This document shows positions 8,870 to 57,789 of a stretch of DNA of 64,000 nt, in pieces. This DNA comes from Lumbricus terrestris (Eukaryota > Annelida > Clitellata > Crassiclitellata > Lumbricidae), in contig OX457038.1 of the NCBI GenBank assembly GCA_949752735.1, positions 21,884,655-21,948,654 of the forward strand, written 5' to 3'. The stretch's first letter is position 1. The number at the start of each line of letters is the position of its first letter. The notes beneath the pieces are model-generated. The model was not told the origin of the DNA, did no database searches, and was given only the letters and a program-made list of their open reading frames with translations. Position numbers and translations under genes: made by a program.

Positions 8870-10560
8870 ATCTTATCTTATCTGACCATTTATAATCTGG
8901 ATTGAGCCATGGCAATCCTGACTCGGGGGACAAAGAGGTCAAGGCGATCAGAGGACCTAAGACCTAAGTGGCAGAAAGGGGGCGAAGTATCTGATCACAC
9001 AGATACTTCGGAGCAAGACCCATTTGAGACTTAAGGACCAAAATCAGGACTTTAAATTGTATACGGGCCGAGAGTGGAAGCCAGTGAAGTTGTTCAGTCA
9101 TGAATGTAGAAATGTGGGAGAATCAAGGAAGACGGGCAATGAGCCTAGCAGCGGCATTGAGTACAGATTGCAGAGGAGCTAGGACAGAATTGCAATAGTC
9201 AATCCGAGAACATACAAAAGCATGCACAATTGAGGTAAAGATCGATGATGAGACAGATTTGCGAATAGCCCTGAGACACCTTAGTTGGAAGTAGGAAGAG
9301 CGAGTAAGATTGGCAATGTTATCAGTGAAGTTAAGAGAACTATCAAGGGTGACACCTAGGTCTCGAACACTGGAGGAGAAGTTAAAGTGAGGAAATGTTT
9401 TAGAGAGCAGTGTGTAGTCAAGTTTTTGAAGCTGCTTAGGTGTGCCAAACCAAATCAACTGGGTTTTGGAAGAGTTCAAAGAAAGATGATTAGATGACAT
9501 CCACAGATGAAGATCTTGAGATAGAGCATCTATTCGACTTGCAAGAAGGAGTTGAGCAGAAGGGGGTCCATGGACATAGGCTTGGACATCATCAGCGAAA
9601 AGGTGGCCAGTAGCAGAGTAACTAGGGAAAAGAGAGGTAATACCAGACGTGTAAAGGGTGAATAGGAGTGGGCCTAGGACAGAACCCTGAGAAACACTCA
9701 AGACAACAGGGACCCACTGAGTCCTAGAGTCGCCAGAGATGATCATTTGGGTGCGATCAGACAGGTAGGACCGAAACCAAAGGAGAGGAGAACCCTTGAG
9801 TCCGCAGGAGGTTTCAAGTCGTTGCAATAGAATCTCATGATCAACCATGTCAAAGGCTGCAGAGATGTCAAAAAGAGCCAAAAGAGTCACTTGAGACTTG
9901 TCAACAGCAGAGTAATATATCAGAAAGAATGGAGAGGAGGTCTGTTTCCGTGGAGTGGTTAGCCCTATAGCCAGACTGGTGGGATGGAGGAGTCCCAATT
10001 GCTCAAGATAGGGAAGAAGTTGCATTGACACAAGTCTTTCAAGAGTCTTAGACAGAAAAGATAGGTTTGAAATTGGTCGATAGTTTTGACTGAGACTAGG
10101 GTCAAGATTGGGCTTCTTGAGTGCAGGAAAAACTCAGGCCCATTTTTGTGAGGCAGGAATGCAGCCCACAGCAAGTGACCTGTTGAAAAGATACACAAAG
10201 AAAACAGCAATGTCATCAAGAATGTCACTAATAATAAAAGGAGGTAGAGGATCTAATTTGCATGATTTTAAATTGACAGATGAAAAAACTGAACGAAGAT
10301 CAGAATCCAAGATAGGTCGAAAGCCGTCAACGACAGATGTTGTCGAGGAGAACGTAGGAGGAGGAGCGTTGGCAGTAGATGCACGAAGACGGTCGGTCTT
10401 GGCTGCAAACACGTCGAGGAAGTCGTTGGCGGAAAAAGCAGGTGTCTCCGCTGGCCTCGATGGTCGACCGAGAAGTCCTGAGATGGAGGTCCAAAGGCGC
10501 ATCTTAATATTTTCTTGCCCAAAAACCCCATTCTAGAAAGTTGAATTCTTATGTCAGATA
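8870..10560 (-). pseudogene. CR1-like LINE reverse transcriptase, frameshifted
   Basis: Read from 10502 downward: an RT N-terminal region with a KSCKLDPLPPFI segment; then, after frame shifts near 10130 and 10000, a 302-codon frame (10031-9123) with motif A ALFDISAAFDMVDHEILL, motif B QGSVLGPLLF, motif C FADDVQAY and C-terminal SRIDYCNSVLAPLQ and NAAARL. The tail towards 8870 is homologous to the plus-strand LINE piece at 20.0-20.46 kb. Catalytic residues are intact but the N-terminal part is in pieces, so the copy cannot be active. Family: CR1/Rex1/Crack-like by motif style. Confidence 0.85.
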
Positions 10561-18850: not shown

Positions 18851-19480
18851 CTAGCTGGAGTACCCGGCGTTGCCCCGGAAATTTAGGATTCGACCCGCTC
18901 CGGTCACAACCACACCACACCCACCACCACACTCTGACATCCACCGGAATGCCACCCGAGAAATTTGAGTTTTCGGGGGAAAAAATCCCCCCAAATGTCC
19001 CCCCCACCTTCCTCACCTCCCCCTCCACAACACGCCACCACTATAACTCCGACCTCCACCGGCACACCACCCATGAAATTTTGGTTTTTGGTTAAATTTA
19101 CCCCCCCCCCAAAAAACGCCCGCCTATGGCCCCCGCTCCACAATACGCCACCACTAACTCCGATCTCCACCGGTACGCCACCCGTGAAATTTTGTCTTTC
19201 GGGGAAAAAATTTCCCCCAAATTTTCCCCAACCCCTCCACAACACGCCATCACTAACTCCGACCTCCACCGGTGCGCCACCCGTGAAATTTTGGTTTTCG
19301 GGGGAGAAATCTTCCTCCGAAATTTCTCCCCTCACCCCCCCCACCTTCCACCCCCACCCACAACACGCCACCACTAACTCTGACCTTCACCGCTACGCCA
19401 CCCGTGAAATTTTGGTTTTCTGGGACGAAGAGTCAAAATACATCCGGACACACAAACATTTGGAAGGACAAACTTTCAGA
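18851..19480 (+). repeat. Minisatellite headed by TACCCGGCGTTGCCC
   Basis: A header of the ACTAGCTGGAGTACCCGGCG type is followed by about five copies of a roughly 100-bp unit containing ACTCCGACCTCCACCGG and CGCCACCCGTGAAATTTTG, with C-rich spacers of varying length. The same header and unit recur at 41411-41910, and the header alone at 27252. Long Pro/Thr-rich frames on both strands are repeat artefacts. Confidence 0.85.
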
Positions 19481-19576
19481 CTTATAATATAGATGAATGC
19501 ACCCCGAAATTATGAATTTTTACCATGGGTACCCGTCGATTCCACAAAACATATACTTACGCATAATAGTAGAAGA

Positions 19577-30077: not shown

Positions 30078-31331
30078 TGTAATGTTTTAATGCTGATTGT
30101 CGTACGCTTCTTATTAATTTCGCCAATCAACTAATTAAAACTATCCTTGGTGGCAGCGGTGTGGTCTCCAGTCTCCTCCAGTCTCCTCGGGTATCGATAG
30201 CGTGGTTCTTTTGACGACTATAATTATGATGAGTGGAATAACACACAGTTGATTTTCCTTTCTTGTATTATTGATTTCTTATCGTACAGTGTTTTATTTA
30301 CAGATTTATTATCGGTTTTTCATAGCGAGTTGTTTAAGTCGTCGTATACAGTCTGTTTCCTATACTTTCGTTCCTATGATCCTATCCTTTATTCCTGCAC
30401 TTCACTCCTACACTTCTAGATTGTAGACCTAACGTGCTGATTTCTTCTCAGTCGCATTGATCTATTTTCTCAATCTTTTTCCTCGGGAGCGATTTCTTTT
30501 CTGAATCGTTCTCTCCCTAACGCCTTCTAAGAGTTAATCCCTTTTCGAGTGGATTTCTCCTTCCGTTCGTTTCCTCCGGCCGCATTCTCAGAGTGAACCC
30601 CTTTTTGAGTGGATTCCTCCTTCCGTTCGTTTCCTCCGGCCGCATTCTCGGAGTGAACCCCTTTTCGAGTGGATTCCTCCTCCCGTTCGTTTCCTCCAGC
30701 CGCTTTCTTAGAGTGAACCCCTTTTTGAGTGGATTCCTCCTTCCGTTCGTTTCCTCCGGCCGCATTCTCGGAGTGAACCCCTTTTCGAGTGGATTCCTCC
30801 TTCCGTTCGTTTCCTCCGGCCGCATTCTCGGAGTGAACCCCGACTCAATATTTCGTCCCCTATTTATCCATTCCTTCCATTGCCTGCCTCAGCCCCTTTC
30901 TATCCATCCATTTTTCTGTCCTTATATGGTCATCTTCACTCCTTTTATGGTCATAATTCATACCTCCGTTTCTTCTACCCTAGGCTATCTCTGCACAGTC
31001 CCCTTGCTATTGCCTTTCCGCCTGCAGTGTACTACTGTCTGCCTGCTCTGAGTCAGTCTGCGTCTTCCAGTCTGCGTCTCTATGTATATATATCTATATA
31101 ATATTTATATTACCCTAGAGTCCTTTACGTTTCTAGTTGTCGGTATTCTATATTTATAATGTTCATTCTCATGCCTACAGTGTTCAATCTAATCCACTTA
31201 GGCCTAATCGTCTTTACGTATTTTAACTATACTGTTCAGTTTCATACATATTAAAATTCTCTACGCAGTGTTCGGTTGCCTATACATTATTCGCATCAGT
31301 CCCTCATAACCCAGCCCCCTCTTCCATTACA
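30078..31331 (+). mobile_element. Solo-LTR-like insertion inside RNase H
   Basis: Begins TGTAATG and ends CATTACA, with 5-bp direct repeats GTCAA at 30073-30077 and 31332-31336. This is the form of a solo LTR or a very short LTR element. It contains a 60-bp tandem array, TATA-rich sequence near 31080-31105, and at 30147-30161 a TTGGTGGCAGCGGTG block matching the host element's primer-binding site. No direct-repeat LTR pair was found within it. Confidence 0.8.
30541..30840 (+). repeat. 60-bp tandem array, five units
   Basis: Units contain GAGTGGATTCCTCC, CCGTTCGTTTCCTCC and GCATTCTCGGAGTGAACCCC, repeated every 60 bp with a few substitutions. Because 60 is a multiple of three, open 20-residue-periodic frames appear on both strands (30517-30825 minus, 30593-31051 plus); I do not regard either as a proven gene. 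Confidence 0.95.
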
Positions 31332-31336
31332 GTCAA

Positions 31337-33217
31337 GTAAACTAAAGGATTATGGTCTGTAAGCACATTAATCTTAGAACCAATAAGAATTTCTTTCAAC
31401 TTATTTAAAGCCCATATGATTGCATAGGCTTCCTTCTCAATCGTCGCCCATCTCCTCTGGGTATCTGTCAGTTTCTGACTTATAAAGGAAACGGGACGTT
31501 CTATCCCTTCATTGTCCACCTGTGATAGGACAGCTCCCACAGCAAAATCACTGCTATCACTGTACAAATTAAAAGGTTTACCAACCTCAAACATATATAA
31601 AACCACATTTGACAAGACAATCTGTTTAAGTGAATCAAAGGATTTCTGATGTGCATCAGTCCAAACAATGTTCTCAGGTACTTTCTTGCTGGTTAAGTCT
31701 GTCAATGGTTTAGCAATTTCAGCAAAATTACAAATAAACTGTCTGTAAAACCCAAAAAATCCTAAGACCTGTTTCACTTCCTTCCTGGTTTCAGGTTTCT
31801 TCAAATTAATCAAACTGTCAATCCTATCTGGATTCATCATCTTCTTCCCTGATCCTATAAGGTGACCGATGAACTTCACCTCACTCTTACCAAACACACA
31901 TTTCTTCAAGTTCAACGTTACATTATGCAGTCTAATTTGTTTCAAAAATAATTCCAAATGCCTTAAATGAATGTCCCAATCATTAGAATGCACTGCAATG
32001 TCATCAACATAAGGTTCAGTGAAATCATGTATCGGTTGCAAAATCATATTTATCGCTTTTACAAAAGTCCGTCCAGAGTTAATCATTCCAAAAGGAACAC
32101 GCGTAAATTCGTACAGTCCATTATGTGTAACAAACGCAGTCTTCCATTGATCACTCTTTTTCACAGGACAAGTCCAATAGGCACTGCGACAGTCCATAAC
32201 AGAAATAAACTTGGATTTTCCGACTTTGCTCAAAACATCATTGACGATTGGCATAGGATATCTGCAGTTCTCAGTAAAAGAGTTAACGTATCTGTAGTCA
32301 CAAGCCAATCTCAAGGATCCGTCCTTCTTTTTGACAATGACAAGTGGACTTGCCATTCTGCTTGACGATGGTTGAATGATGTTTTCTTTCAGCATCTCTT
32401 GTATTTGTCTTTCCACTTCTGCCCGGTATATTAGTGGTATTCGATATGCCATGAATTCTTTTTCTCGAAAGTCTGGTTTCAACACCACTTCATGTTCTAC
32501 TAATGTACAAAGTCCCGGTTTGTCCGAAAATCTGTCTGCATAACGATTCAGTACATCCAGTAATTGTTTCTGCTGTTCGCTCGTAAGATGTCCAATTTGT
32601 TCATAATCCAATTGGAGTGATTTCTGTTTTGTCTCTGAATAGTCTTCTTTCAGCGGTATTTCTACCACTGATCCAAATTCGTCATCCTCTTCCACGATCA
32701 GACCACAAGACAATGTTCTCGTAATGAACTTCCTCATCTTGTTGGCATGCATAATCCGTCGACCGTTTTCATTCATGTCCACGAAATACGAATATTTGGA
32801 TCTTCTTTGCAAGACAGTGCATGGACCATGCCATCGTGAGATTAATTTATTGGTTGACGTTGGATACAGCACGATGACGTTTTCTCCTGGTTCGAATTCT
32901 TTATCTTTTGCTCTTTTGTTATATTGACTGGCGTATTGTTTTTGCTTTTCTTCAGCACAGCTCTCGGCGAATGTCAAGGCCTTTTCCATGTCTGCTCTTA
33001 AATTCTTCAAGTATTTTGCCGGTTGAACTCCAATGTTCGGTGGTAAATTTATCTCTTTGGTCCAGCTTTCTTTAAGAATGGTTAGTGGCCCTCTCGGCAA
33101 CTTTCCATAGACCAGCAGATACGGTGCCACTCCTGTAGTTGCATTAGGCACTTCTCTCAATGCCCAGACTAAATGGTATGATTTTATGCCACTGTCTCGG
33201 ATTTTCCACAATGACAT
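31337..33217 (-). CDS. Gmr1-like pol, downstream frame: integrase C-terminus, RT, RNase H (interrupted)
   Basis: The opening residues complete the integrase core (LREVPN, YLLVYGKLPRG), followed by a GPY/F-like RWHGPCTVL around residue 130. RT follows from about residue 280, with motif A FISVMDCRSAYW, VPFGMINSG, and catalytic YVDD. The RNase H part has NLYSDSSDFAVGAV, ATIEKEAYAI and VLTDHNPL, i.e. the first three catalytic acids, before the insertion at 31331 ends it; the remainder is at 29949-30077. It overlaps the upstream frame by about 75 nt. The first methionine is not a natural start. Either one polyprotein was broken by a small indel, or a frameshift site exists; the integrase motif spacing favours an indel. 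RT domain residues are intact. Confidence 0.9.
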
Positions 33218-36200
33218 GATGAACCATCTTCTTGAACGTTTGATTCCATCTCTCCACTAATCCGGCCGCTTCTGGATGTCCTGGCGAATCGAATCGAGGA
33301 CAACACCCCATCAATTTCAGAAATTCTCTCGTTAGACTGGCTGTAAAATTCGTTCCTCTATCACTCGTTATCACTGACGGAACTCCCACATCCATGAACA
33401 ACTTCATCAGAGCTTCGCATACAGCCTTAGCAGTCAATGACTTCATCAAAAAGATTGTCGGCCATCTTGTACATGAGTCTACGATGCACAAGCAATACTT
33501 ATGCCCTGCTGCTGATGTCGGTTCGATTGGTCCTACGACGTCCATTGTCATTCTTCTGAACGGCACATCCTCCCTTGGTATTGGCGTAATCGGTACTCGA
33601 TCCATCACCAAACTTCGTGCTTTCAACTGACACTTCTCACAAGACTTGCAGAACTTCACCACATCTCTACGCATCCTTGGCCACACAAAGGACAATTTGA
33701 TACGTTCTCTTGTCTTCTCTTCTCCCAAGTGTCCGCCAAATACTGACTCGTGCGCCAATTCCATCACCTGAATTCTTCTTTCCTTCGGCAACACCAACTG
33801 ATACACCAACTGGTCCAACATTTGATGTTTCTTATACATCAACCCATTCACCACACTAAACTCAGATCCTTTGTCTTCAGCTGTCTTCCACCACGACTTC
33901 AGTGACTCGTCATTTCTCTGCTGCTCTTCAAATTTCTTTGCGTCTGCCAATTGTCTTTCATCACTCGTATTCTCGGCAAACAAATCTCTCATACTCGTGT
34001 CCATTTCACTATCACTTCCAGAATCATCATAATCATCACGTTCACATGCAACCATCTCTTCTTCAATTTCATTGCTCCCGGATGTTACTCCTTCTTCTTC
34101 TTCTTGAACGCTTTGTTCATCATCGCTTTCTGTGTCCTCATCTAGCAAACTTTCATTTAGCTGTTCCTCTTCTCCTTCTTCCACTTCTCTTCTCCGACTT
34201 TGTGCTCTCGTAGTCACATTCGCTTGCAATTCTCCTTGCAATACACTCACTGGTGGAACCTCTTTCAGTTCTGCAATTATTTCTGGATGCAGCAAGAACT
34301 TTTCTTTGTTATCTTTGCACAAGACTGCTGGAATGCTGGCACATACCAAGGTTAAATATGGCGCGATATTTACTCCCTTGTCCTTCAAATCTCCTCCTTC
34401 GTGTACGTTATGACCACTCATCCGCACTTCTATTTTCACCAACTTAGCTGGAATGGGTTCTCCAGCCACACATTGCAAATGTACTCTGCCAATTTCTTCT
34501 ACTGTCGCTCCTTTCAATAATTCTTCATTGATTACTGGAATCTCAGTACCAGAGTCAATCAGCGCTTTGACTTGCACGGGATGACACCTGTCATCATTTC
34601 CACGTATCTCTACATCTACATGCTGTAGTAAGGACTTCTTCGTACGTTGACACTGATCTTTACTTTCTGTTTCTCGACAAGTATCCGTAATGGGAGCAGA
34701 TTTTACTACTTCTCTCTGTATAGTAAACTGAGGCGTACACTTCATTACTGACTTCACTTCCGTTTCGCGGTTGTCTTGTCCTTCCAGCTGATTAGGTGCA
34801 TTCATTACTTGGATCTGATTTACTCTGAGATTTTCTGCACTTCGAGTAAATCTATTTCTCAGATTTGTCATTCTTGGTGGTGCTTGACAATCCTTTATCA
34901 AATGTCGGTCTGACTGACAATTATGGCAACGTTTCCTCACAATACCTCTCTGTTCAGTGCTCTCCCGTCTGTAATTGTACGGAGTATATGCTGCATTGCT
35001 TTCTCTTTGGCGTCCCATCACTGGAATTCGACTATATATTTGTCTGTCACCCGTTGCTTCTCTTCTATCTTGACCAAACTGTCTTCCAGGAGCACTATCT
35101 TTCCTTACTTCATTACTTCTGGCTTGGCTTCCCGTTTCTTTGTTATTATTATTCCACCTGGTTTGCTTCGAACTATTACCCCATGCTTCATATTTTGGTT
35201 TGTCTTGAAACATTAGACCAATTCGATTGTTCACATGTATGTCTGCGAGATCTGCAACATTACTAGCTTCCAAGCATTCAGTACCCTCCTTTGCTAGTAC
35301 AAACTGTAGTGGACCCGGTGGTAGACATTCTTTCAACTTATCCGCCACCAACAGATCAAATAACTTCTCATAGTCTTTGCCCACTCGCCTACTTCTGACA
35401 TAATAGTTCAACAGATTCTTCAATCTTGCTGTAAACATAGTGTATGTCTCTTCTGCCGTTTTCTTCGCATCTACAAATCGTGATCGATATTCTCTCGCTG
35501 TCAATTTGAATTCTTTCAATAAATGTTCTTTCACTATGTCGTAATTGTCTAGATCATCAAAAGACAATCGGTTTAACACCGTTCTCGCTCTTGGTGTCAT
35601 TAGTGGCAACAGCAATTTGACCCAAAACTGCTTTTCCACCGTAAAACTGTTGAATGCATTCTCAACTGTCTCAAAATATAATGGCACCTCCATCATATCA
35701 TATGGCATCTTAGGTAACACGTGTTTCATTGCATCACCTATCTTTTTAATCTTAGACACCATTGTCTCACTTTCTCGGATCCTATTTTGTTCTAACTCCT
35801 CACGGCTTCTTCTTTCGTCTTCATTTCGTTCCCTCAGTCTATTTTGATCTTCTTCCCTACGCAGTTCTTCTTGTTCTATCTTCTGCTGCAACAATTCTAA
35901 CTGCTTTCTGCGTTCCTCCTTTTCTATAGCCATTTCTCGGAGCTGAGCTTCCTTAAGAGCGAGTTTCTTTTGTTCTAAATGTACTTGTTCTTCCCTTTCT
36001 CGTTCCGCTTTTTCCAAATTTTCTTTCTCCATATTCAATTCTTCCTGTCGAATCTCTTCGGCTCTTTGTAATTCTGCCAAACGCATGGCTTCCTTGGCTT
36101 CCTCGCGAGCCTTTTGCTCTTCAATCTGTTGTTTCCGTATTTCTTCATCACTTTTCCTTGCCCTCTCGTATTCTATCATCAATTCCATTCTTCTTCGTTC

Positions 36201-36809
36201 AGCTTCGTCACGATCTCTTTTCAGTTGTTCTAACTGAAGCTGGAACTGCTGCTTCTGCATCTCTATCTCTTCTTGTCTCATCCTTTCTGCTTGTTCTGCT
36301 CTTACTTTTTCCTCTTGTCTCCGTTCTTTTTCTTCTTGTCTCCTTTGTTCCTCTTTCTCTTTCTCCTCCTGTCTCCGTTTCTCTTCTTTCTCTTTCTCTT
36401 CTTGCTTACGTTGCTCCTCTTTCTCTTTCTCCTCCTGTCTCCGTTGCTCCTCTTTCTCTTTCTCCTCCTGTCTCCGTTTCTCCTCTTTCTCTTTCTCTTC
36501 TTGTTTCCGTTCTTTCTCTTCTTGTCTCCGTTCTTTCTCTTCTTGTCTCCGTTGCTCCTCCCTCATCATCATAAATTGCATCAACGCCTCCATAGACATG
36601 GCCTGTGGTTTCTCCTCAGCCCCACCCACAGCGCCTTTCTCTTCAGCTTCCTTTTTTAGCCAATCCTCTGCTAAAGCTCTCATCAAATTTTCCCTTGACA
36701 TCTCTTCGACTTCTTCCACGTCTAGACCAGCTTCGATTAATAATTTTATTATTCGATCAGAAGACATCTTTTTTATACTAGCTTGTTTTTGTTCTGTAAG
36801 TTTCTCCAT
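33144..36809 (-). CDS. Gmr1-like Gag-protease-integrase frame
   Basis: 1,221 codons. Residues about 70-345 are a very long charged coiled coil built from EEKEKEEQRRQ-type repeats. About 350-520 is the capsid-like region (LLLPLMTPRARTVL, MFTARLKNLLNYYV). A CCHC knuckle, CHNCQSDRHLIKDC, lies near residue 626, protease LIDSGTEIPVI near 750 (DSG in place of DTG), and a Glu/Asp-rich linker near 860-960. The integrase HHCC zinc motif (HESVFGGH, CKSCEKC) is near 1016-1055 and the DDE core near 1089 (MDVVGP), 1148 (SDRGTNF) and 1185 (GLVERWN). The frame leaves the conserved integrase at about 33170 and stops within 10 codons. Placing the integrase before RT is the diagnostic oddity. Start at 36809 is the only early methionine. 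Confidence 0.9.
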   Translation of the reverse strand: MEKLTEQKQASIKKMSSDRIIKLLIEAGLDVEEVEEMSRENLMRALAEDWLKKEAEEKGAVGGAEEKPQAMSMEALMQFMMMREEQRRQEEKERRQEEKERKQEEKEKEEKRRQEEKEKEEQRRQEEKEKEEQRKQEEKEKEEKRRQEEKEKEEQRRQEEKERRQEEKVRAEQAERMRQEEIEMQKQQFQLQLEQLKRDRDEAERRRMELMIEYERARKSDEEIRKQQIEEQKAREEAKEAMRLAELQRAEEIRQEELNMEKENLEKAEREREEQVHLEQKKLALKEAQLREMAIEKEERRKQLELLQQKIEQEELRREEDQNRLRERNEDERRSREELEQNRIRESETMVSKIKKIGDAMKHVLPKMPYDMMEVPLYFETVENAFNSFTVEKQFWVKLLLPLMTPRARTVLNRLSFDDLDNYDIVKEHLLKEFKLTAREYRSRFVDAKKTAEETYTMFTARLKNLLNYYVRSRRVGKDYEKLFDLLVADKLKECLPPGPLQFVLAKEGTECLEASNVADLADIHVNNRIGLMFQDKPKYEAWGNSSKQTRWNNNNKETGSQARSNEVRKDSAPGRQFGQDRREATGDRQIYSRIPVMGRQRESNAAYTPYNYRRESTEQRGIVRKRCHNCQSDRHLIKDCQAPPRMTNLRNRFTRSAENLRVNQIQVMNAPNQLEGQDNRETEVKSVMKCTPQFTIQREVVKSAPITDTCRETESKDQCQRTKKSLLQHVDVEIRGNDDRCHPVQVKALIDSGTEIPVINEELLKGATVEEIGRVHLQCVAGEPIPAKLVKIEVRMSGHNVHEGGDLKDKGVNIAPYLTLVCASIPAVLCKDNKEKFLLHPEIIAELKEVPPVSVLQGELQANVTTRAQSRRREVEEGEEEQLNESLLDEDTESDDEQSVQEEEEGVTSGSNEIEEEMVACERDDYDDSGSDSEMDTSMRDLFAENTSDERQLADAKKFEEQQRNDESLKSWWKTAEDKGSEFSVVNGLMYKKHQMLDQLVYQLVLPKERRIQVMELAHESVFGGHLGEEKTRERIKLSFVWPRMRRDVVKFCKSCEKCQLKARSLVMDRVPITPIPREDVPFRRMTMDVVGPIEPTSAAGHKYCLCIVDSCTRWPTIFLMKSLTAKAVCEALMKLFMDVGVPSVITSDRGTNFTASLTREFLKLMGCCPRFDSPGHPEAAGLVERWNQTFKKMVHHVIVENPRQWHKIIPFSLGIERSA

Positions 36810-37059
36810 CTTACTTCTTTACTTCAAATGATTTCAGTGAAGAAATCGAGGGAGTGGCTATAATTGCCGTGATTGGTTGACTTTAATTCTTATTGCTTGT
36901 TTATTCAAGGAGTGAGTTTTGTATACCTCTCTCTGGCGTTGCGTTGTCGTAATGTCATTCGTATGCCCGTTGTATCTTCTCACCAGTTGTTCGGATGCTC
37001 GGAATGCTTCTCCGGTTGATCAGATGCTCATTCTCCTTCTCCCGTGAGGTCGGCTTCTC

Positions 37060-39960: not shown

Positions 39961-40040
39961 CAGCACCCAATATTATGAGGAAGAACTGTCATAAAGATTT
40001 TTTGCAATGAAATTAAATTATAGTATATTGAAAATAATAT

Positions 40041-40720
40041 GCAATAAACAAGCATTTCAGTTAAAATCTTTCATGCCCGTTTTCTCAAAAACCTTACGTG
40101 ATACAAAAATTCTGAGAACACCACCGTGTTCAGCACGTCAACTTCTCTAGAAAACAGTCAAATTTTTTCAGAAACAAAAAAGTTTAAATTTGTTGACCAG
40201 TGTAATATGCAATAAACAAGCATTTCAGTTAAAATCTTGCATGCCCGTTTTCTCAAAAACCTGACGTGATACAAAAATTCTGAGAACACCACCGTGTTCA
40301 GCACGTCAAGTTCTCTAGAAAACAGTCAAAGTTTTTTCGGAAACCAAAAAAGGTAAAATTTGTTGACCAGTGTATAATATGCAATAAACAAGCATTTCAG
40401 TTAAAATCTTGCATGCCCGTTTTCTCAAAAACCTGACGTGATACAAAAATTCTGAGAACACCACCGTGTTCAGCACGTCAACTTCTATAGAAAACAGTCA
40501 AAGTGTTTTCGGAAACAAAAAAAGTTTAAATTTGTTGACCAGTGTAATATGCAATAAACAAGCATTTCAGTTAAAATCTTGCATGCCCGTTTTCTCAAAA
40601 ACCTTACGTGATGGAAAAATTCTGAGAACAGCATTGTTTTCAGCATGCCAAATTCTATATAAAACAGTTAAAGATTTTTAGGAAACAAAAAAAAAGTTAA
40701 AATTTGTTGACCAGTGTAAT
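40041..40720 (+). repeat. ~170-bp tandem array, four units
   Basis: Units start GCAATAAACAAGCATTTCAG at 40041, 40209, 40381 and 40551 and end GTTGACCAGTGTAATA. The last unit is most diverged. A 71-codon frame here is a repeat artefact. Confidence 0.92.
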
Positions 40721-41410: not shown

Positions 41411-41910
41411 TAGCTGGGGTACCCGGCGTTGCCCGTGAAATTTAGGATTTGACCCGATCCGGCCACAGCCCCACCACACCCCACCACCCCGACCTCCACC
41501 GGTACGCCACCCAAGAAATGTTGGTTTTCGGAGAAAAAAATTCCCCAAATTTACCCCTTACCCTCCTCCAACCCCCCCTCCACAACACGCCACCACTAAC
41601 CCCGACCTCGACCGATACGCCACCCTTGAAATTTTGTTTTTTTTGGGGAAAATTTCCCACCCCAAAATTTTCCACACCCCTCCCCACCCCCCACAGCACG
41701 CCACCACTAACTCCGACCTCCACCGGTACGCCACCCGTGAAATTTTTGGGGGGGCAAAAATTCCTCCCCAAATTGCCCCAACCCCTCCTCTACCCCAAAA
41801 CGCGCCACAACTCCGACCTCCACCGGTACGCCACCCTTGAAATTTTGGTTTTCGGCGGAAGATTTCCCTTCCCTCAAATTTCCCCCACCCCTCCCTCTCT
41901 CCACAACACG
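41411..41910 (+). repeat. Minisatellite headed by TACCCGGCGTTGCCC, second locus
   Basis: Header ACTAGCTGGGGTACCCGGCG, then about five roughly 100-bp units with CCGACCTCCACCGGTACG and CGCCACCC...GAAATTTT. Same family as 18851-19480. Confidence 0.85.
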
Positions 41911-42407
41911 AATATATTAGATTTTAAACTAATCGCTCATTTTTTATCATTTGTTTTAAGCTATTGTAAAGTAGTGTAGCGAAATTGGGGAAGGGACCCT
42001 CCCCATTTTCTTTAGCGCTTCCTGTCTCTTCTGCCTTCTCCTGTTGTCCGTTTCCCGCGCTCCAGCCTGCCTCTTTTCGAGGCCACCCGTACTCTGAACG
42101 GCACGTGCTTCATGTTTCCCGCGCTCTAGCCTGCCTCTTTTGAGGCCGCTTGCCTTTTGGCCCTCTAGTGCCTCTAGTTTCCCGCGCTCTAGCCTGCCTC
42201 TTTAAAGGCTGGCCTGCCTCTTTCAGAAGGCTAGCCTGCCTCTTTAAAGGCTGGCCTGCCTCTTTAAAGGCTGGCCTGCCTCTTTAAAGGCTGGCCTGCC
42301 TCTTTCGAAAGGGCTGGCCTGCCTCTTTTGAGGCTAGCCTGCCTCTTTTGAGGCTAGCCTGCCTTTTCGTTCCCGCGTTACTTTAGCCACGCCCACCCCC
42401 GGGTAGT

Positions 42408-42417
42408 GTATATAAGG
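42408..42417 (+). promoter_or_regulatory. TATA box in the 5' LTR
   Basis: GTATATAAGG follows a CACGCCCACCCCC (CACCC/Sp1-like) box at about 42388. The same pair is in the 3' LTR at 47488-47497. Transcription would start near 42440, giving an R region that ends after AATAAA. Confidence 0.7.
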
Positions 42418-42632
42418 GGCTGTGTTTTAGTAAGAGCAGTCATCGAGGGAGTCCATCCGAGAGATACGTAGTGAAGTCAGTCATCGACGAGTCATCGAGG
42501 GAGTCCATCCGAGAGATACGTAGTGAAGTGACTCGTCGACGAGTCAGCGAGGCAGTCAGTCCGTGACGTACAGCAGACGAGTAGTGGACCGACGGACGAT
42601 TTAGCGACCGTGTGACAGTTTGTCGTTGTGAG

Positions 42633-42638
42633 AATAAA
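42633..42638 (+). terminator. LTR polyadenylation signal AATAAA
   Basis: AATAAA lies about 200 bp downstream of the predicted cap site; the copy in the 3' LTR (47713-47718) would be the one used. Confidence 0.6.
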
Positions 42639-42877
42639 GATCGTGTCTTCATTCGGACGTCGGGGTGTTCTCTACGGGCGGAGCGGCCGGAAGTGTCCCA
42701 CCTTTCCTTCGAAATACCCCGGAGGCGAACTCACGTTTCCACCCCCCTGAAACGACACGCGTCCTTCCACTTCCGCTATCCTGGTTACACGGAAGCTTGG
42801 GCGTACGGCTGGGAAAACGGGGCAACCGGGTCCGTTACACTGGTGCCAGAAGAGGAGGCCCCTTAATTCCGTTACAC

Positions 42878-42895
42878 TGGTACCGAACAAGTGGG
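42878..42895 (+). promoter_or_regulatory. Primer-binding site of the pol-deleted Gypsy element
   Basis: TGGTACCGAACAAGTGGG starts one base after the LTR. A related TGGTGCCAGAAGAGG 37 bp upstream, now inside the LTR, looks like an earlier PBS. Confidence 0.7.
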
Positions 42896-42940
42896 GTCTG
42901 GTGGTGGACATTTCCGACCAAGATTCGCAACTGACCGACG

Positions 42941-45900
42941 ATGGAGGAAGACGAAGAAGTCACGGTCGCTTATCCTGCAGGAAGATTCGCCGACCTACGC
43001 CCGAACGTCTCGACGCCATTAGCCGACGGAAGCGCGACGGCCGAGCCACGGACGGATCGAAGTCGATTTACGGAGGAACCCCGACGACCGACGTGGGCGA
43101 GCCATGGAGAAACGTCCTACGAACGCGAGACTACCGGAGGACGGCCGTGGACTCGACCGCCTCCGATGAAACCAGGGAAATTTGACGGCGCGGGATCGCT
43201 GGAGTCGTTCCTGACTCAATTCGAAGTCTGCGCCCGGCACAACCAGTGGACGGCCGCCGACCGAGTCGACTACCTTCGGTGCAGTCTCGAGAAAGCTGCC
43301 ACGCAGCTGCTGTGGGACTTCGGAGCCCGTCCGAACGTCGACTACGATGAGCTGGTCGAACGTCTTCGACAAAGGTACGGAACGGAGGGCCAGGCGGAAA
43401 GTTTCCGCGCGCAACTGTATTACAGACGTCAACGTTCCGAAGAGACCCTGAGCGAGCTACTACATGATATTCGTCGTCTGGTCGTGTTGGCATATCCGGT
43501 GCCATCCAACGATACTACGGAGATTCTTGCCAAGGACGCTTTCCTGGAGGCCCTGCGCGATAGGGACCTGTCGCTCAAAGTACGCGAGCGGGAACCCAAG
43601 AACTTGGACGAGGCCTACAGGACGGCGCTTCGTCTTGATGCTTATCAGCGGACGAACGATACCGAGGATCGACGGAGGCCTTCCAACCGCGTCCGAAGCA
43701 CCCAGGAGATGGACGTGAGTGCCCAGGTCCAGTCCACGCTCGACCGGTTCCTTGAGACGCAGCGTAACGAGCAACGACGCTGGCAGACAGAGATGGAGAG
43801 GCGTCTCGATCGACAGTTCCAGGAGCTACGAGGCCGAGCTCCGACCGACAACGATCTGGGGCATGATGGCCGCCCCGGAAACCGCAGCGCCGACGACCGA
43901 GGCCAGAATAGACGGGGCGTGACCTGCTACAACTGCGGCCGCCCCGGTCACATCAGTCGGAACTGCCGCCAGCCACGACGCCCTTTCAACCGCCAGAACG
44001 ACGCCGAGGAGACCGGAACAGAAGCGACGACGCCGCCGACGTCAGTGGCCATGAACCATACGACGCGTTCCAGATTGCCGGACCGAGCCAGCAGCAACGC
44101 AGTGTACATCCGTGGAACCGTCAATGGACTCCAACAGACGTGCTTGATCGACACCGGATCGGAAGTCAGCTTGATCCCCGCTACAACTGTGGAAGGGTTA
44201 GCACTGCAATCTTGTTCTCGTTTTCTGATGGCTGCAAATGGCACTAACATTAATGTACTAGGGGAGATCCGTTTGCCACTTAAGATACGGAATGGATTTG
44301 AGGTCCCCACTGGATTTTTAGTATCCGACCAAATTGCGGAACCCATGCTAGGGATGGACTGGTTGCGGGAACACCGATGTAGACTAGGCTTCGGGAATGG
44401 TGCCTTATTCTTGGGACGTAGACGCATACCCCTTGTCCGAGGCAATGGCTCAATGTGGTGCCGTAGGGTAATGCTAGCCGAGGAGGTAGTGGTGTCCCCC
44501 AGGTGCCAAACCGAGGTTCCCGTTAAATTGATTTACGGAGATTTGACGTCTAAGGCGCCCGCTTGGATGACCGAGGCGCAGGAAATCCAGCCAGGGGTAC
44601 ATCTCGCCCGCGTGGTGGTGGAAGACCGCGCAGATGTTACGGTGAGGTTGGTAAATCTAAATGAGGAACCAGTGAGAATAGCTAAGGATCGGTTCCTAGG
44701 TGGCTTACACCCCGTGGAAGTTGAACAGGGAACGGAACCGAAGCGGAACGAAGCGTTAGGCGATGAGACCGTGTGGAGAGACACGTTGATGAAGGATTTG
44801 CTGGAAGAGGTTCCCTCCGAGATCCGCCGGCGACTAGACCAGTTACTGCAGGAGTACAAGGATGTGTTTTCGCTTAACGACAGAGATTTGGGTAAGACGT
44901 CGATTACGACCCACAGGATAGAAACAGGTGAAATGCGCCCTGTGAGGCAGCCTTTGAGACGCCACCCCGTACCCCATAGGGAGGTAATGGGTAATGCATT
45001 AGACGCCATGTTAAGCGATGGGGTAGAGGAACCCGCTGTTAGCGAGGGTATGTCCGGGACCGGTTGCAGCGACCATAGGTTAAGCGTTGAGTACGGACGG
45101 ACCGCGGAAGCATCGCAGACCCGGTTATTGGTGCAACGCAGAGCGTTTAAGGTCAATAGGATCACGCACGCTAGGAGTAGGACTAAATTTAGCCCTCCTT
45201 TTAGGCGCCTGTTAGAGGTACTGCCCTATTTTGAGCCATGGGTGACGTCAGAGGTTGCGTATGTGGGTCCATGTCCTTCGGGGTGGAGCCAACAGCAGCC
45301 ATCTGAGAGAACGAGAGGGTGCGTACCTTCGCGCCTACATTGCTCGTCTGTGCAAGAGGGCGGGGCGATCTATCGATCGCTCGATGAGCGCGACCGGGCA
45401 ACGTCACCTGCTGAGACGATTGACTGGATTGGCGGAGGGAGGCGAGCGATCCACCTAGCCTGCCGAGGTAAATTCTGTCGCCGACCCCACATCAGCCTCT
45501 TTCGTCAGGTGAACATGGCCGAGGCACCACTGTTTCGTTGTTCCCTGTGCTCGGCATGTTACTCCGGAGATTACGGATGGCAATCTTTGCTACGCCACGA
45601 GCGAAAGACGCACGGACGCAGCCGACGGAAGAAAGCTTGCGTGCGACGGATCCAAGTAGGCGAATCGCCGTCGACCTCGACGGAGGCGCTCTCTACCGTG
45701 GAAGCGACCTGGTCGACCGAAGCTATGGACGTCCTCCCGGAAGGGGTCGTGCTGGAAGAGTTGATGGAAGGGCCGGAGTTGGACGACCTGCTGGACTACT
45801 TGATGCCGATTGACGTTGCTGCACCGGAGGGACGGGAAGTGATTGGAACGCCGGGGTTGACGGAAGGCGACCCGCCGGCGCCCCCGTCTCTGCTATCGCC

Positions 45901-46456
45901 CGGACCGGAAGCGGAAGCCCTGCTGGCTCTGGTCGACGCCATCCGACCTCCCGACGTCGGGGAAGTCTTGGCGCCCCCTGCTGAACCGTTGGCTGCAGCG
46001 CCCACCGAAGCGGAAGTGCGTGCGGTTTATCGCATGGCCGACAGCCCGGGGTTGTTTCGCGATCTGGAACAATTTCTGACCCGCGTACGACTGACCTATC
46101 CTCAATTTCCGGCTTCTGTCGCGGAGATCGCTTTCCAAACTGGACGCATCGGGACAGTGCGCCCGCGCGGGGTCGCAATGGTGCGCCCCTGCACTCCGCC
46201 TCCTCCTCCCCCCGCACCGGACGTTGACGAGAGGTGGCTTTACTATGATTTGATCAGCAACCCGATCTTCGACCCGATGGATCCTCCGATGGACGATGGA
46301 GAACCCGTCGTCGATCTGACCAGCGAACCCTCCTCCTCATCGGGAAGCGACGACCCCAATGACCCTGACTACGTGCCGTCGGAGTCGGATGATTTCCCTT
46401 TGCCGCCGGGTCAACGCAGTCCCGACGCCATTTCCCTTTCCAGTGAAGACGCTTGA
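42941..46456 (+). CDS. Gag-protease-truncated RT fused to a C2H2 zinc-finger/acidic protein
   Basis: 1,171 codons, uninterrupted. Residues about 75-270 are a Gypsy gag (FDGAGSLESFLTQFEVCARH, then WDFGARPN and LRQRYGTEGQAESF). A CCHC knuckle CYNCGRPGHISRNC lies near 328-341, protease LIDTGSEVSLIPA near 403-415, and flap-side LGMDWL near 468. The linker to RT (EYKDVFSLNDRDLG, HRIETGEMRPVRQPL) ends at about residue 705, and recognisable RT stops there. Residues 708-858 match nothing. From Met859 (45515, AACATGG context) starts a different protein: C2H2 finger C870-C873-H886-H891, Pro/Ala/Glu-rich middle, and an acidic tail with VVDLTSEPSSSSGSDD resembling a SUMO-interacting motif. CTCTTTCGTCAG just upstream of Met859 could be a splice acceptor, so this part may be expressed from a spliced RNA. 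Whether the fusion is translated whole is unknown. Confidence 0.85.
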   Translation: MEEDEEVTVAYPAGRFADLRPNVSTPLADGSATAEPRTDRSRFTEEPRRPTWASHGETSYERETTGGRPWTRPPPMKPGKFDGAGSLESFLTQFEVCARHNQWTAADRVDYLRCSLEKAATQLLWDFGARPNVDYDELVERLRQRYGTEGQAESFRAQLYYRRQRSEETLSELLHDIRRLVVLAYPVPSNDTTEILAKDAFLEALRDRDLSLKVREREPKNLDEAYRTALRLDAYQRTNDTEDRRRPSNRVRSTQEMDVSAQVQSTLDRFLETQRNEQRRWQTEMERRLDRQFQELRGRAPTDNDLGHDGRPGNRSADDRGQNRRGVTCYNCGRPGHISRNCRQPRRPFNRQNDAEETGTEATTPPTSVAMNHTTRSRLPDRASSNAVYIRGTVNGLQQTCLIDTGSEVSLIPATTVEGLALQSCSRFLMAANGTNINVLGEIRLPLKIRNGFEVPTGFLVSDQIAEPMLGMDWLREHRCRLGFGNGALFLGRRRIPLVRGNGSMWCRRVMLAEEVVVSPRCQTEVPVKLIYGDLTSKAPAWMTEAQEIQPGVHLARVVVEDRADVTVRLVNLNEEPVRIAKDRFLGGLHPVEVEQGTEPKRNEALGDETVWRDTLMKDLLEEVPSEIRRRLDQLLQEYKDVFSLNDRDLGKTSITTHRIETGEMRPVRQPLRRHPVPHREVMGNALDAMLSDGVEEPAVSEGMSGTGCSDHRLSVEYGRTAEASQTRLLVQRRAFKVNRITHARSRTKFSPPFRRLLEVLPYFEPWVTSEVAYVGPCPSGWSQQQPSERTRGCVPSRLHCSSVQEGGAIYRSLDERDRATSPAETIDWIGGGRRAIHLACRGKFCRRPHISLFRQVNMAEAPLFRCSLCSACYSGDYGWQSLLRHERKTHGRSRRKKACVRRIQVGESPSTSTEALSTVEATWSTEAMDVLPEGVVLEELMEGPELDDLLDYLMPIDVAAPEGREVIGTPGLTEGDPPAPPSLLSPGPEAEALLALVDAIRPPDVGEVLAPPAEPLAAAPTEAEVRAVYRMADSPGLFRDLEQFLTRVRLTYPQFPASVAEIAFQTGRIGTVRPRGVAMVRPCTPPPPPPAPDVDERWLYYDLISNPIFDPMDPPMDDGEPVVDLTSEPSSSSGSDDPNDPDYVPSESDDFPLPPGQRSPDAISLSSEDA

Positions 46457-47058
46457 ACAGTTCCGAGGTTAGAAACGGTTAACTTCGTTGTTTGAGAGTG
46501 TTCTGTTCAATTGTTGTTCCGACGGAACGAGTTTCTGTAAGCTTAATTGCTGCCTAGTTAGTGTTGCCGGTTTCGGCTTAAGTGTTGTCTTGTATGAGAC
46601 GTGTCGTGTTGTGTTACAGTCTTTCGTTTACGACTGGACTAGTCAAGAAGTAGTTGGCCTGTATGGGTCATGTTTTGTGCCTTAAAGATATTAACTATTG
46701 TCGTCGTAAAATGGAAGACACTGCGTATTGCTGTCGTGCTGAAGAACAGTGCATAACGTTGTCGTGAATTGAGAGACATTGTTTAATTTGCTGCGAAATG
46801 AAAGACATTGAGTATTACGTCGCAAAGGACATTGCATAATTTCTTCGTGAATTGAAGGACATTGTGATTAATTAAGGCGCATCGTTGCCGTGGAACTGAA
46901 GAGACTGTTGTACTAAACGCATAGTTAAGGATCGTTTTGTTGTCCCGTGTGGGACCGATGTTCTTGGATGTGTTACCGACTATGTGGACGTAGGTTGGAC
47001 TGCGAGACCTTGGACTGTCCCCGTGGGAGCGTAACCGAAAAATGAGGGCATTTTTACC
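46457..47058 (+). other. 3' untranslated region with diverged GACATTG repeats
   Basis: About 600 bp. From 46710 to 46880 a roughly 35-45-bp unit with TCGTGAATTGAAGGACATTG recurs about five times, diverged. No coding region. Confidence 0.6.
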
Positions 47059-47073
47059 GGGGAGGGCGAAGGA
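47059..47073 (+). promoter_or_regulatory. Polypurine tract
   Basis: GGGGAGGGCGAAGGA directly precedes the 3' LTR. Confidence 0.85.
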
Positions 47074-47074
47074 T

Positions 47075-47959
47075 TGTAGCGAAATTGGGGAAGGGACCCT
47101 CCCCATTTTCTTTAGCGCTTCCTGCCTCTTCTGCCTTCTCCTGTTGTCCGTTTCCCGCGCTCCAGCCTGCCTCTTTTCGAGGCCACCCGTACTCTGAACG
47201 GCACGTGCTTCATGTTTCCCGCGCTCTAGCCTGCCTCTTTTGAGGCCGCTTGCCTTTTGGCCCTCTAGTGCCTCTAGTTTCCCGCGCTCTAGCCTGCCTC
47301 TTTAAAGGCTGGCCTGCCTCTTTCAGAAGGCTAGCCTGCCTCTTTAAAGGCTGGCCTGCCTCTTTAAAGGCTGGCCTGCCTCTTTCGAAAGGGCTGACCT
47401 GCCTCTTTTGAGGCTAGCCTGCCTCTTTTGAGGCTAGCCTGCCTTTTCGTTCCCGCGTTACTTTAGCCACGCCCACCCCCGGGTAGTGTATATAAGGGGC
47501 TGTGTTTTAGTAAGAGCAGTCATCGAGGGAGTCCATTCGAGAGATACGTAGTGAAGTCAGTCATCGACGAGTCATCGAGGGAGTCCATCCGAGAGATACG
47601 TAGTGAAGTGACTCGTCGACGAGTCAGCGAGGCAGTCAGTCCGTGACGTACAGCAGACGAGTAGTGGACCGACGGACGATTTAGCGACCGTGTGACAGTT
47701 TGTCGTTGTGAGAATAAAGATCGTGTCTTCATTCGGACGTCGGGGTGTTCTCTACGGGCGGAGCGGCCGGAAGTGTCCCATCTTTCCTTCGAAATACCCC
47801 GGAGGCGAACTCACGTTTCCACCCCCCTGAAATGACACGCGTCCTTCCACTTCCGCTATCCTGCATGGTTACACGGAAGCTTGGGCGTACGGCTGGGAAA
47901 TCGGGGCAACCGGGTCCGTTACACTGGTGCCAGAAGAGGAGGCCCCTAATTCCGTTACA
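47075..47959 (+). repeat. 3' LTR of the pol-deleted Gypsy element
   Basis: 885 bp. Compared with the 5' LTR it lacks one 20-bp GGCTGGCCTGCCTCTTTAAA unit, has 4 extra bases near 47864 and one fewer C in a C-run near 47945; this accounts exactly for the 17-bp length difference. Confidence 0.95.
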
Positions 47960-47964
47960 GTAGG

Positions 47965-56750: not shown

Positions 56751-57608
56751 CTCTTCTTCTTCTTCATGTTCTCTGCCCCACGGCAGGTTCGAACTTCCGA
56801 CGGCGCCACTCCTCCCGGTGTTCAGCCTCTACTTTCAGTTTCCCATAACCTTCAACCAACACCCAGTCCAATAGTTTCTGTCTTTGTTTTCCTCTTTTTC
56901 TTTTTCCCTCTGTTCTTCCTTCAATGATCACTTTCAGAAGGGATTCTCCTCTCAGGATGTGGCCTATCCATGTCTTTTGCCTCATCTTTATTGTATCCAA
57001 CATTGCTCTTTCCTCTTCTACTCGTTGTAGCACCTCCTCGTTTGATACATGTTCAGTCCAACTAATCCTCTCCATCTTCCTTCATAACCACATTTCAAAC
57101 GCCTCCAGTCTTCTAGTATCTTCTTTCCTCAGAGTCCACGTTTCTGATCCATATAGTGTTACACTCCATATCAATGTTTTAATCATTCTTTTCTTGAGAT
57201 TCCTACTCAATCCTCCTCTCAGCAATTCTTTCCTCTTCATGAATGCCTCCTTTCCCATTGCTATTCTTCTCCTGATTTCTCTATGACATTTTGCATCTGT
57301 TGTAACCACACTCCCTAAGTAACAGAACTCTCCGACCTGTTCTACCTTCTCTCCATTGATTGTTATCGTTACTGTTGTTTCCTTCTTCCTGCTGATCTTC
57401 ATTACTTTAGTCTTTTTAGTGTTTATTTTCATACCATATTCTTGAGAAGTCCTTTCTAGACGGTCCATCATCTCTTGTAGTCTTTCCTGTGTGCCTGCCA
57501 ACATTGCTTGGTCATCTGCAAACCGAAGTGCCTTTACCAGTGTCCCACCCACTTTTATTCCCACATCCAAGTTTTCCAATGCCTCTCTAATCAGTTCTTC
57601 TATATATA
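56751..57608 (-). pseudogene. 5'-truncated LINE insertion (RT C-terminal half) with 8-bp TSD
   Basis: Flanked by ACAAATCG at 56743-56750 and 57609-57616. Minus-strand reading gives RT motif C LRFADDQAMLA, INTKKTKVM, FCYLGSVV, SETWTLRKED, then a stop in place of one codon at about 57080, then in the same frame MERISWTEHVSNEEVL, KTWIGHILRGESLL and a final VGQRT. The 3' tail reads TGAAGAAGAAGAAGAG. One in-frame stop in about 280 codons means the copy is fairly recent. It sits in intron B-C of the USPL1-like gene, antisense to it. Confidence 0.9.
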
Positions 57609-57789
57609 ACAAATCGTTCAGTGATCAACAAATCGTTCAATGATCAACAAATCGTTTTGTTGCTTTTGCACATTTGTCTATAAAATTGCTGTATTTTTCA
57701 GACTCTAAGTTGGCCTAATGGCATATGCTATGTTATGGCGCCATAGAAAAAACTCCAGCAAAGAAATAAAATATTCTTAAAAAGATCAT

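Follow-up and report, generated by a model that had tools for sequence, protein, structure and literature searches.

A probable semi-autonomous Gypsy-type retrotransposon of Lumbricus terrestris with a zinc-finger/acidic protein cassette in the place of pol

Introduction

A stretch of 64,000 nucleotides from the earthworm Lumbricus terrestris (assembly GCA_949752735.1, contig OX457038.1, positions 21,884,655-21,948,654 of the forward strand; hereafter the window, whose own numbering is used below) harbors a young Ty3/Gypsy-type long terminal repeat (LTR) element at positions 41975-47959. Its single open frame of 1,171 codons (42941-46456, + strand) passes from Gag and protease (PR) through the first residues of reverse transcriptase (RT) into a zinc-finger/acidic protein. 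The locus raises the question of whether such a frame is a product of decay, the outcome of one accidental gene capture, or a lasting way of life for a retrotransposon. We consider it probable that this is a Gypsy-type retrotransposon of the semi-autonomous kind, and that a cassette consisting of a short linker and a gene for a C2H2/acidic protein, here called ORF3 (open reading frame 3), has taken the place of the pol half of its gag-pol frame. At least four subfamilies, including that of the window element, contain related cassettes, and in three of them the Gag is that of an autonomous gag-pol family of the same genome, a different one in each case.

Results and Discussion

Structure of the window element

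The element is flanked by a 4-bp target-site duplication, GTAG (41971-41974 and 47960-47963), and bounded by a 5' LTR of 902 nucleotides (41975-42876, +; TGTAG...TTACA) and a 3' LTR of 885 nucleotides (47075-47959, +). The two LTRs, of the TG...CA type, differ by six substitutions over 881 aligned positions (99.3% identity) and by gaps of 20, 4 and 1. The 5' LTR contains a TATA-like box recognizable by sequence (TATATAAGG; 42409-42417, +) and is followed by a primer-binding site (PBS; CTGGTACCGAACAAGTGGGG; 42877-42896, +), which is assigned by position and appearance and has similar counterparts in the copies and partners described below. A polypurine tract (PPT), likewise recognized by sequence (GGGGAGGGCGAAGGAT; 47059-47074, +), precedes the 3' LTR. 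Pfam models identify a Gag CCHC zinc knuckle at residues 328-344 (43922-43972, +; PF00098, E 3.3e-7) and a retroviral-type aspartic protease at residues 390-476 (44108-44368, +; PF13975, E 1.7e-6), with a further, sub-threshold match of a spumavirus protease model to residues 623-670. These are the features of a Ty3/Gypsy element, and no Pfam domain of RT, RNase H or integrase was found within the window element, such domains being seen in its relatives only.

Of 7,993 candidates scored in a protein search with residues 60-860, 50 proved to be related, and the alignment to most full-length relatives ends at residues 701-705. Those relatives that possess a full pol, for example P0005 and P0007, could be aligned with the window protein up to about residue 702, i.e., over the first RT residues. 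The PR-RT spacer and the RT stub (44369-45052, +), in which homology to autonomous gag-pol ends at about residues 702-704, are followed by an in-frame linker of about 154 residues (45053-45514, +) and by the 313-residue ORF3 (45515-46456, +). An earlier sequence-only reading had proposed an uninterrupted 1,171-codon frame joining Gag-protease to a zinc-finger/acidic protein, Gypsy coding that stops near residue 705, the loss of the RT core, RNase H and integrase, and intact LTRs, TATA box, PBS and PPT with LTRs about 99% identical. The results above bear out each of these points.

Close copies with and without ORF3

The same genome (1.06 Gb in 331 contigs) was searched with the DNA of ORF3, giving 24 matches, of which 23 are 96-100% identical and lie on 11 contigs, the remaining one being 71% identical. 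A query spanning the junction (44960-45515) gave 40 scored places out of 52 candidates, and the 23 full-length ones among them (92-100% identity) are the ORF3 copies. The 1,171-codon frame is kept in eight of the 18 other loci fetched around ORF3 copies and is not kept in ten. The probability of an assembly error or chimera near 45050, which the sequence-only reading had named, along with an absence of further copies, as grounds for giving up its proposal, is therefore negligible; the copies and whole-junction matches rule out an artefact. LTR sequence is present on both sides in the 18 loci, with damaged or unreadable LTRs in L024, L030 and L040 (in L024 only 114 nucleotides of the 5' LTR were matched and a run of N extends into the LTR), and intact ends show 4-bp target duplications, for example, GTAC in L026, GTAG in L038 and ATAA in L035. 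The element is thus, as had been suggested, pol-deleted and non-autonomous with an accessory gene, and it has multiplied. Three loci (L029, L036 and L037) contain head-to-tail arrays of ORF3 elements with spacings of 5,183, 3,611 and 5,038 bases, which apparently share LTRs. We also note that the PBS varies among the window-type copies L023-L040 (GGTACCGAACAAGTGG, GGTACCAGAAGTGG, GGTACCGAGCAAGTGG), as would be expected from an exchange of primers or 5' ends.

The other 17 junction places end at query positions 430-435, near 45394, and lack ORF3. The three that were read (L042, L043 and L044) have the frame and the linker in common with the window up to 45394. L043 and L044 then enter a tail resembling the pol C-terminus of relatives (RPKRTxRRPxRY), L042 is shortened there, and all three rejoin the 3' untranslated part of the window element at 46434-46456, the last bases of L044 being common with the end of ORF3. 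The same pol-deleted frame therefore exists with and without ORF3, and the ORF3-less form has also multiplied. Because these sisters have a pol C-terminal tail at the place of the window's ORF3, a single gene capture into one element was favored at first; it was dropped once ORF3 was found in diverged subfamilies.

Diverged subfamilies share the cassette

A search of the genome with the ORF3 protein gave 125 matches at E-values up to 1 (114 at 0.001 or better), which, when joined within 1.5 kb, form 94 places, many matches being pieces of one copy. Beyond the 23 close copies, stop-to-stop frames of 1,236 codons were found at nine places, of 955 codons at 23 and of 1,149 codons at one. One member fetched for each frame-length class (L050, 1,228 residues; L049, 950 residues; L051, 1,141 residues) proved to be a single-frame Gag-PR-linker-ORF3 element with neither RT nor integrase. 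The window element and these sister subfamilies thus keep the Gag-PR frame in the way of semi-autonomous elements. Their LTR pairs are 99.86% (L050, in which the matching part stops short of the LTR end), 100% (L049) and 99.8% (L051) identical. With respect to the window, identity in Gag is 85% for L050, 84% for L051 and 62% for L049, and identity in ORF3 is 53%, 50% and 35%, respectively. L041 is a decayed further copy with the same layout, L052 has lost the front of ORF3, and weak matches of the protein search (E 0.2-0.3) fall in frames of 220-223 residues.

We observe two further arrangements around pol. At G000:C1:69492553-69492779, a fragment of ORF3 comprising residues 188-241 is joined directly to a pol C-terminal tail, which shows that other joints of ORF3 and pol exist. 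Several public relatives (P0002, P0003, P0009, P0011, P0017, P0018, P0023 and others) have open Gag-PR frames and a shortened pol with no ORF3-like motif, so that in-frame loss of pol may be common in this clade.

Autonomous partners and mosaic structure

The sequence-only reading had called for full-length relatives, and RT-bearing ones are present in the same genome. Autonomous gag-pol elements are numerous there; searches with the proteins P0036 and P0001 gave 38 scored places (of 8,242 candidates) and 42 scored places (of 10,828), respectively, most of them having open frames of around 1,600 codons and some being shorter or containing stops. Gag and Pol form a single frame in these families. 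For three of the four subfamilies, autonomous gag-pol relatives were found whose Gag DNA shows 97-99% identity. With L050, family A (C6:11339350) has 98.7% identity over 2,112 nucleotides of gag, PR and the RT stub and 99.0% over 581 nucleotides to the right of the cassette, beginning in the last pol codons; the LTRs match at 98% over 336 nucleotides and 91% over 740 nucleotides. The corresponding identities between family C (C1:11745864) and L049 are 98.7% over 1,580 nucleotides to the left of the cassette and 95% over 776 nucleotides to its right, starting 23 nucleotides past the pol stop. With both flanks of the cassette matching an autonomous element in two subfamilies, the linker and ORF3 sit where most of pol should be. 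The left breakpoints differ, lying at the start of RT in L050 and at the end of PR in L049, and families A and C are themselves only 68.7% identical. The gag of the window element is matched at C11:39805347 (99% identity) and C4:72382974 (97%), where a pol tail lies 4,377 and 4,365 nucleotides, respectively, beyond the window-like gag; between the two at C11 is a 501-base open RT piece with YLDD, 90% identical to P0001.

The silent difference in gag-PR is 0.029 between L050 and family A and 0.050 between L049 and family C, and a gag tree that includes the partners from the same genome groups L050 with A and L049 with C. Between L050 and L051, the silent difference is 0.297 in gag-PR as against 0.751, a saturated value, in ORF3. 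As ORF3 is far more diverged between subfamilies than the Gag to which it is attached, these elements are mosaics whose halves differ in age. The ORF3 lineages separated long before the present Gags did, and an old cassette seems to have been re-paired with different autonomous families. Instead of the single novel joining envisaged at the outset, the window element thus belongs to an old group of ORF3 elements joined to at least three autonomous families.

Selection on ORF3 and drift of the linker

Among nine intact window-type copies, silent and replacement changes number 46 and 24 in gag, 42 and 22 in PR with the RT stub, 24 and 48 in the linker, and 33 and 33 in ORF3, with per-site ratios of 0.17, 0.17, 0.65 and 0.34, respectively. 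ORF3 departs significantly from neutrality (p 1.7e-5) and the linker does not (p 0.057), and between subfamilies the proportion of replacement differences in ORF3 is lower than that of silent ones (pN < pS). These counts indicate that ORF3 is under purifying selection and that the linker is nearly neutral. Within ORF3, silent and replacement changes number 7 and 2 in the finger region, 8 and 16 in the part that follows, 9 and 7 in the helical segment, and 9 and 8 in the tail.

The identity of the linker drifts to 18-27% between subfamilies. It is nevertheless open in the Gag frame in all four, the other two frames holding 5-15 stops each, and the open frame is thus unlikely to be due to chance; after dinucleotide shuffling, the four linkers were open in only 3, 3, 3 and 28 of 2,000 trials. 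In four of the six subfamily pairs, at most one of 500 shuffles reaches the observed linker similarity, and one stretch of the linker weakly resembles the integrase zinc-binding region of relatives (E about 0.01). The linker is common to the ORF3-less copies only up to 45394. The description of this region as 150 unmatched residues consequently does not hold.

The ORF3 protein and its possible role

The four ORF3 proteins have their conserved parts in the same order, with 62 invariant columns that include a C2H2-like finger (45539-45613, +; ligands C867, C870, H886 and H891), a segment in the middle, and an acidic tail that contains DDP-DPDY and GQRSP. The finger had been proposed earlier with C870, C873, H886 and H891 as ligands; three of these stand, while C873 is not conserved in the other three subfamilies and C867 takes its place among the conserved residues. 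The best conserved segment (PTEAEVRAVYRMADSPGLF...FPASVAEIAFQTGR; 46001-46144, +) is helical in a low-confidence model. In the window protein the acidic tail begins with VVDLT (46307-46321, +), which we take to be a SUMO-interaction-like pattern, followed by serines and acidic residues. Basic residues number 11-12 among the first 50 residues of the four proteins, and acidic residues 12-16 among the last 50. Membrane-spanning stretches usually exceed a hydropathy of 1.6, and the peak 19-residue values of the four ORF3 proteins are 0.87-1.28; the absence of a membrane stretch rules out an env-bearing, errantivirus-like element.

No ORF3-related protein was found among 7,981 and 7,995 scored protein candidates, and no close relatives were confirmed in viral contigs. 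The sequence-only reading had raised the capture of a host gene, and no host source gene for ORF3 was found in a search that is incomplete, the matches in the same genome not each having been checked for lying in an element. The best structural match, a KDM2A chain (E 0.0075), was judged a match of cysteine composition and rejected.

Proposed mechanism

Trans-mobilization of these elements is suggested by copies that have young LTRs and lack RT. RT, RNase H and integrase would be supplied in trans by an autonomous partner, whose enzymes would recognize the shared LTR ends, PBS, PPT and packaging signals. The simplest route by which the cassette could have been re-paired with new partners is template switching when both RNAs share a particle. 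Since Gag and Pol lie in one frame in the autonomous families, ORF3 would stand where Pol does in the polyprotein, and we favor a role as a chromatin or transcription effector in that place, on the grounds of its basic finger region and its acidic, SUMO-binding-like tail. The least certain steps are that ORF3 may enter the particle as a Gag-PR-ORF3 fusion from which PR would cut it free, and that the freed protein might act in the nucleus on chromatin or element transcription, for example, as an activator of its own LTR or against silencing.

We put forward only tentatively, and as a doubtful extension, the idea that ORF3 is a portable retroelement gene, from a family with no relatives found, which moves between autonomous families by replacing pol and serves as a particle-borne nuclear effector through its own Gag-PR fusion. 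If so, the effector would be an LTR activator or anti-silencing factor, and ORF3 would survive over long times by changes of partner.

Weighing the alternatives

It is quite plausible, if short of probable, that ORF3 is instead a separate protein made from its own ATG, through a subgenomic or spliced RNA or by re-initiation, in the manner of a retroviral env or accessory gene, the linker then being a relic of in-frame pol deletions. The ATG is invariant in the four subfamilies and has a strong context, with a purine at -3 and G at +4, so that separate translation fits as well as a fusion, and in the window a pyrimidine-rich stretch lies upstream of ORF3. The linker, however, is open in the Gag frame in all four subfamilies despite its low identity, which shuffled linkers seldom are, and the splice acceptor predicted earlier at about 45508 has an AG that, on inspection, is not conserved between subfamilies. 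An improbable reading, already disfavored by the selection result for ORF3, treats the element as a passive deletion derivative whose intact LTRs, PBS and packaging signals carry along a functionless captured ORF3 fragment. The plant element Bs1, which carries captured pieces, offers a parallel, and the ORF3-less sisters have spread too, but purifying selection in the window family, pN < pS between subfamilies and the 62 invariant columns in conserved order argue otherwise.

ORF3 could also have been an ancestral third gene, located behind pol in an autonomous lineage, whose subfamilies lost pol separately and in which recent exchange made Gag identical to that of the partners. We regard this history as rather unlikely. 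The different left breakpoints of L050 and L049, the gag and ORF3 distances, which rank the subfamilies alike, and the ORF3 fragment joined to a pol C-terminal tail at C1:69492553-69492779 would agree with it. On the other hand, the 125 ORF3 matches are all at least 29 kb away from the 80 scored autonomous places, no ORF3 was found to follow pol ahead of the 3' LTR in the single copy read of each of families A and B, and the similarity of four of the six linker pairs fits one ancestral loss of pol.

Replacement of pol by the linker-ORF3 cassette in a semi-autonomous element remains the reading that we prefer, and several results weigh against it, beginning with the equal fit of separate translation noted above. 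A partner sharing LTR ends and PBS is present for L050 (family A) and for L049 (family C, in a comparison that leaves out its 5' end), the partner of the window element was compared over gag, RT and the pol tail, and no partner was identified for L051 in its own genome. The full frame is kept in nine of the 23 close copies, the window included, and since ORF3-less sisters account for 17 of the 40 junction places, ORF3 is not needed in cis for mobility. The direct contrast of ORF3 with the linker is borderline (Fisher p 0.058), the middle of ORF3 (frame residues 906-1028) is near neutral with a ratio of 0.75, and the linker similarities of the window-L049 and L051-L049 pairs were reached by 22 and 29 of 500 shuffles. 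The finger matches one Pfam C2H2 model weakly, below its cut-off, and a single-sequence fold of ORF3 is too poor for use (mean predicted local distance difference test score, pLDDT, 45).

Other repeats in the window

Another retroelement lies at 31304-36818 (- strand). One of its frames has a Gag-like coiled sequence, identified by eye, and an integrase (H2C2, rve), and the overlapping frame that follows encodes RT and RNase H, so that the integrase precedes RT; this order is that of the Gmr1-like Gypsy elements. Four tandem copies of a 172-nucleotide unit, 81-100% alike, occupy 40032-40713. Similar C-rich repeats coding for PTSTGTPP-like strings are present at 18904-19492 and 41439-41979, the second ending, by eye, at the edge of the element. 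Frames at 9123-10133 (-) and 57082-57624 (-) resemble, by eye, pieces of RT of the long interspersed nuclear element (LINE) type.

Comparison with known systems

It is usual to read the loss of pol as decay. The ORF3 elements look more like a stable way of life, multiplying with one shared protein, and ORF3 itself is a protein family, with no relatives in the searches made, that selection maintains on a selfish element. With the partners at hand, trans-complementation, partner exchange and delivery by Gag fusion become directly testable. In the literature, of which our coverage is partial, we found no Gag-PR element of an animal in which a shared C2H2/acidic gene takes the place of pol, and we therefore do not claim that such elements are unpublished.

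Placed by structure, the nearest known systems are the semi-autonomous wheat elements RLG_Quinta and RLG_Sabrina_SA. According to the available part of its description, RLG_Quinta encodes Gag and a domain of unknown function, DUF1, lacks RT and integrase, and has a partner in the genome, RLG_Cereba, to which its LTR ends, PBS and PPT link it; template switching has been proposed as the way in which the two recombine (PMC11302176). The likeness to the earthworm elements extends to a Gag element lacking RT and integrase, an additional domain and a partner in the same genome. RLG_Quinta differs in being a plant element with GAG and DUF1 but no protease, and in a GAG that, as far as that account goes, is barely alike to that of its partner at the DNA level (PMC11302176), whereas the earthworm elements are from an animal, have Gag-PR and ORF3 in one frame, a Gag 97-99% identical to that of the partner, and one ORF3 family across partner families. 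RLG_Sabrina_SA, which has Gag-protease without RT and integrase and is likewise called semi-autonomous, has RLG_Wilma as its partner; in the Sabrina NA variants unique coding segments replace Gag-Pro, and partner switching has been proposed for RLC_Angela (PMC9744471). The portion of that report available to us describes no single conserved protein behind Gag-Pro in several subfamilies (PMC9744471).

More distant parallels come from two other plant systems, again as far as the accessible parts of the reports go. Bs1 of maize is also an LTR element carrying foreign coding pieces, which derive from known host genes (PMC7264820, PMC13317346), unlike ORF3, for which no host relative was found. Non-autonomous endogenous pararetroviruses of grasses are kept like their autonomous partners by region-specific recombination, and the part they share is noncoding and regulatory (PMC5491270), whereas the earthworm elements share gag and PR and gain a new gene. 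The ORF3 elements may thus be regarded as an animal counterpart to the semi-autonomous elements of plants.

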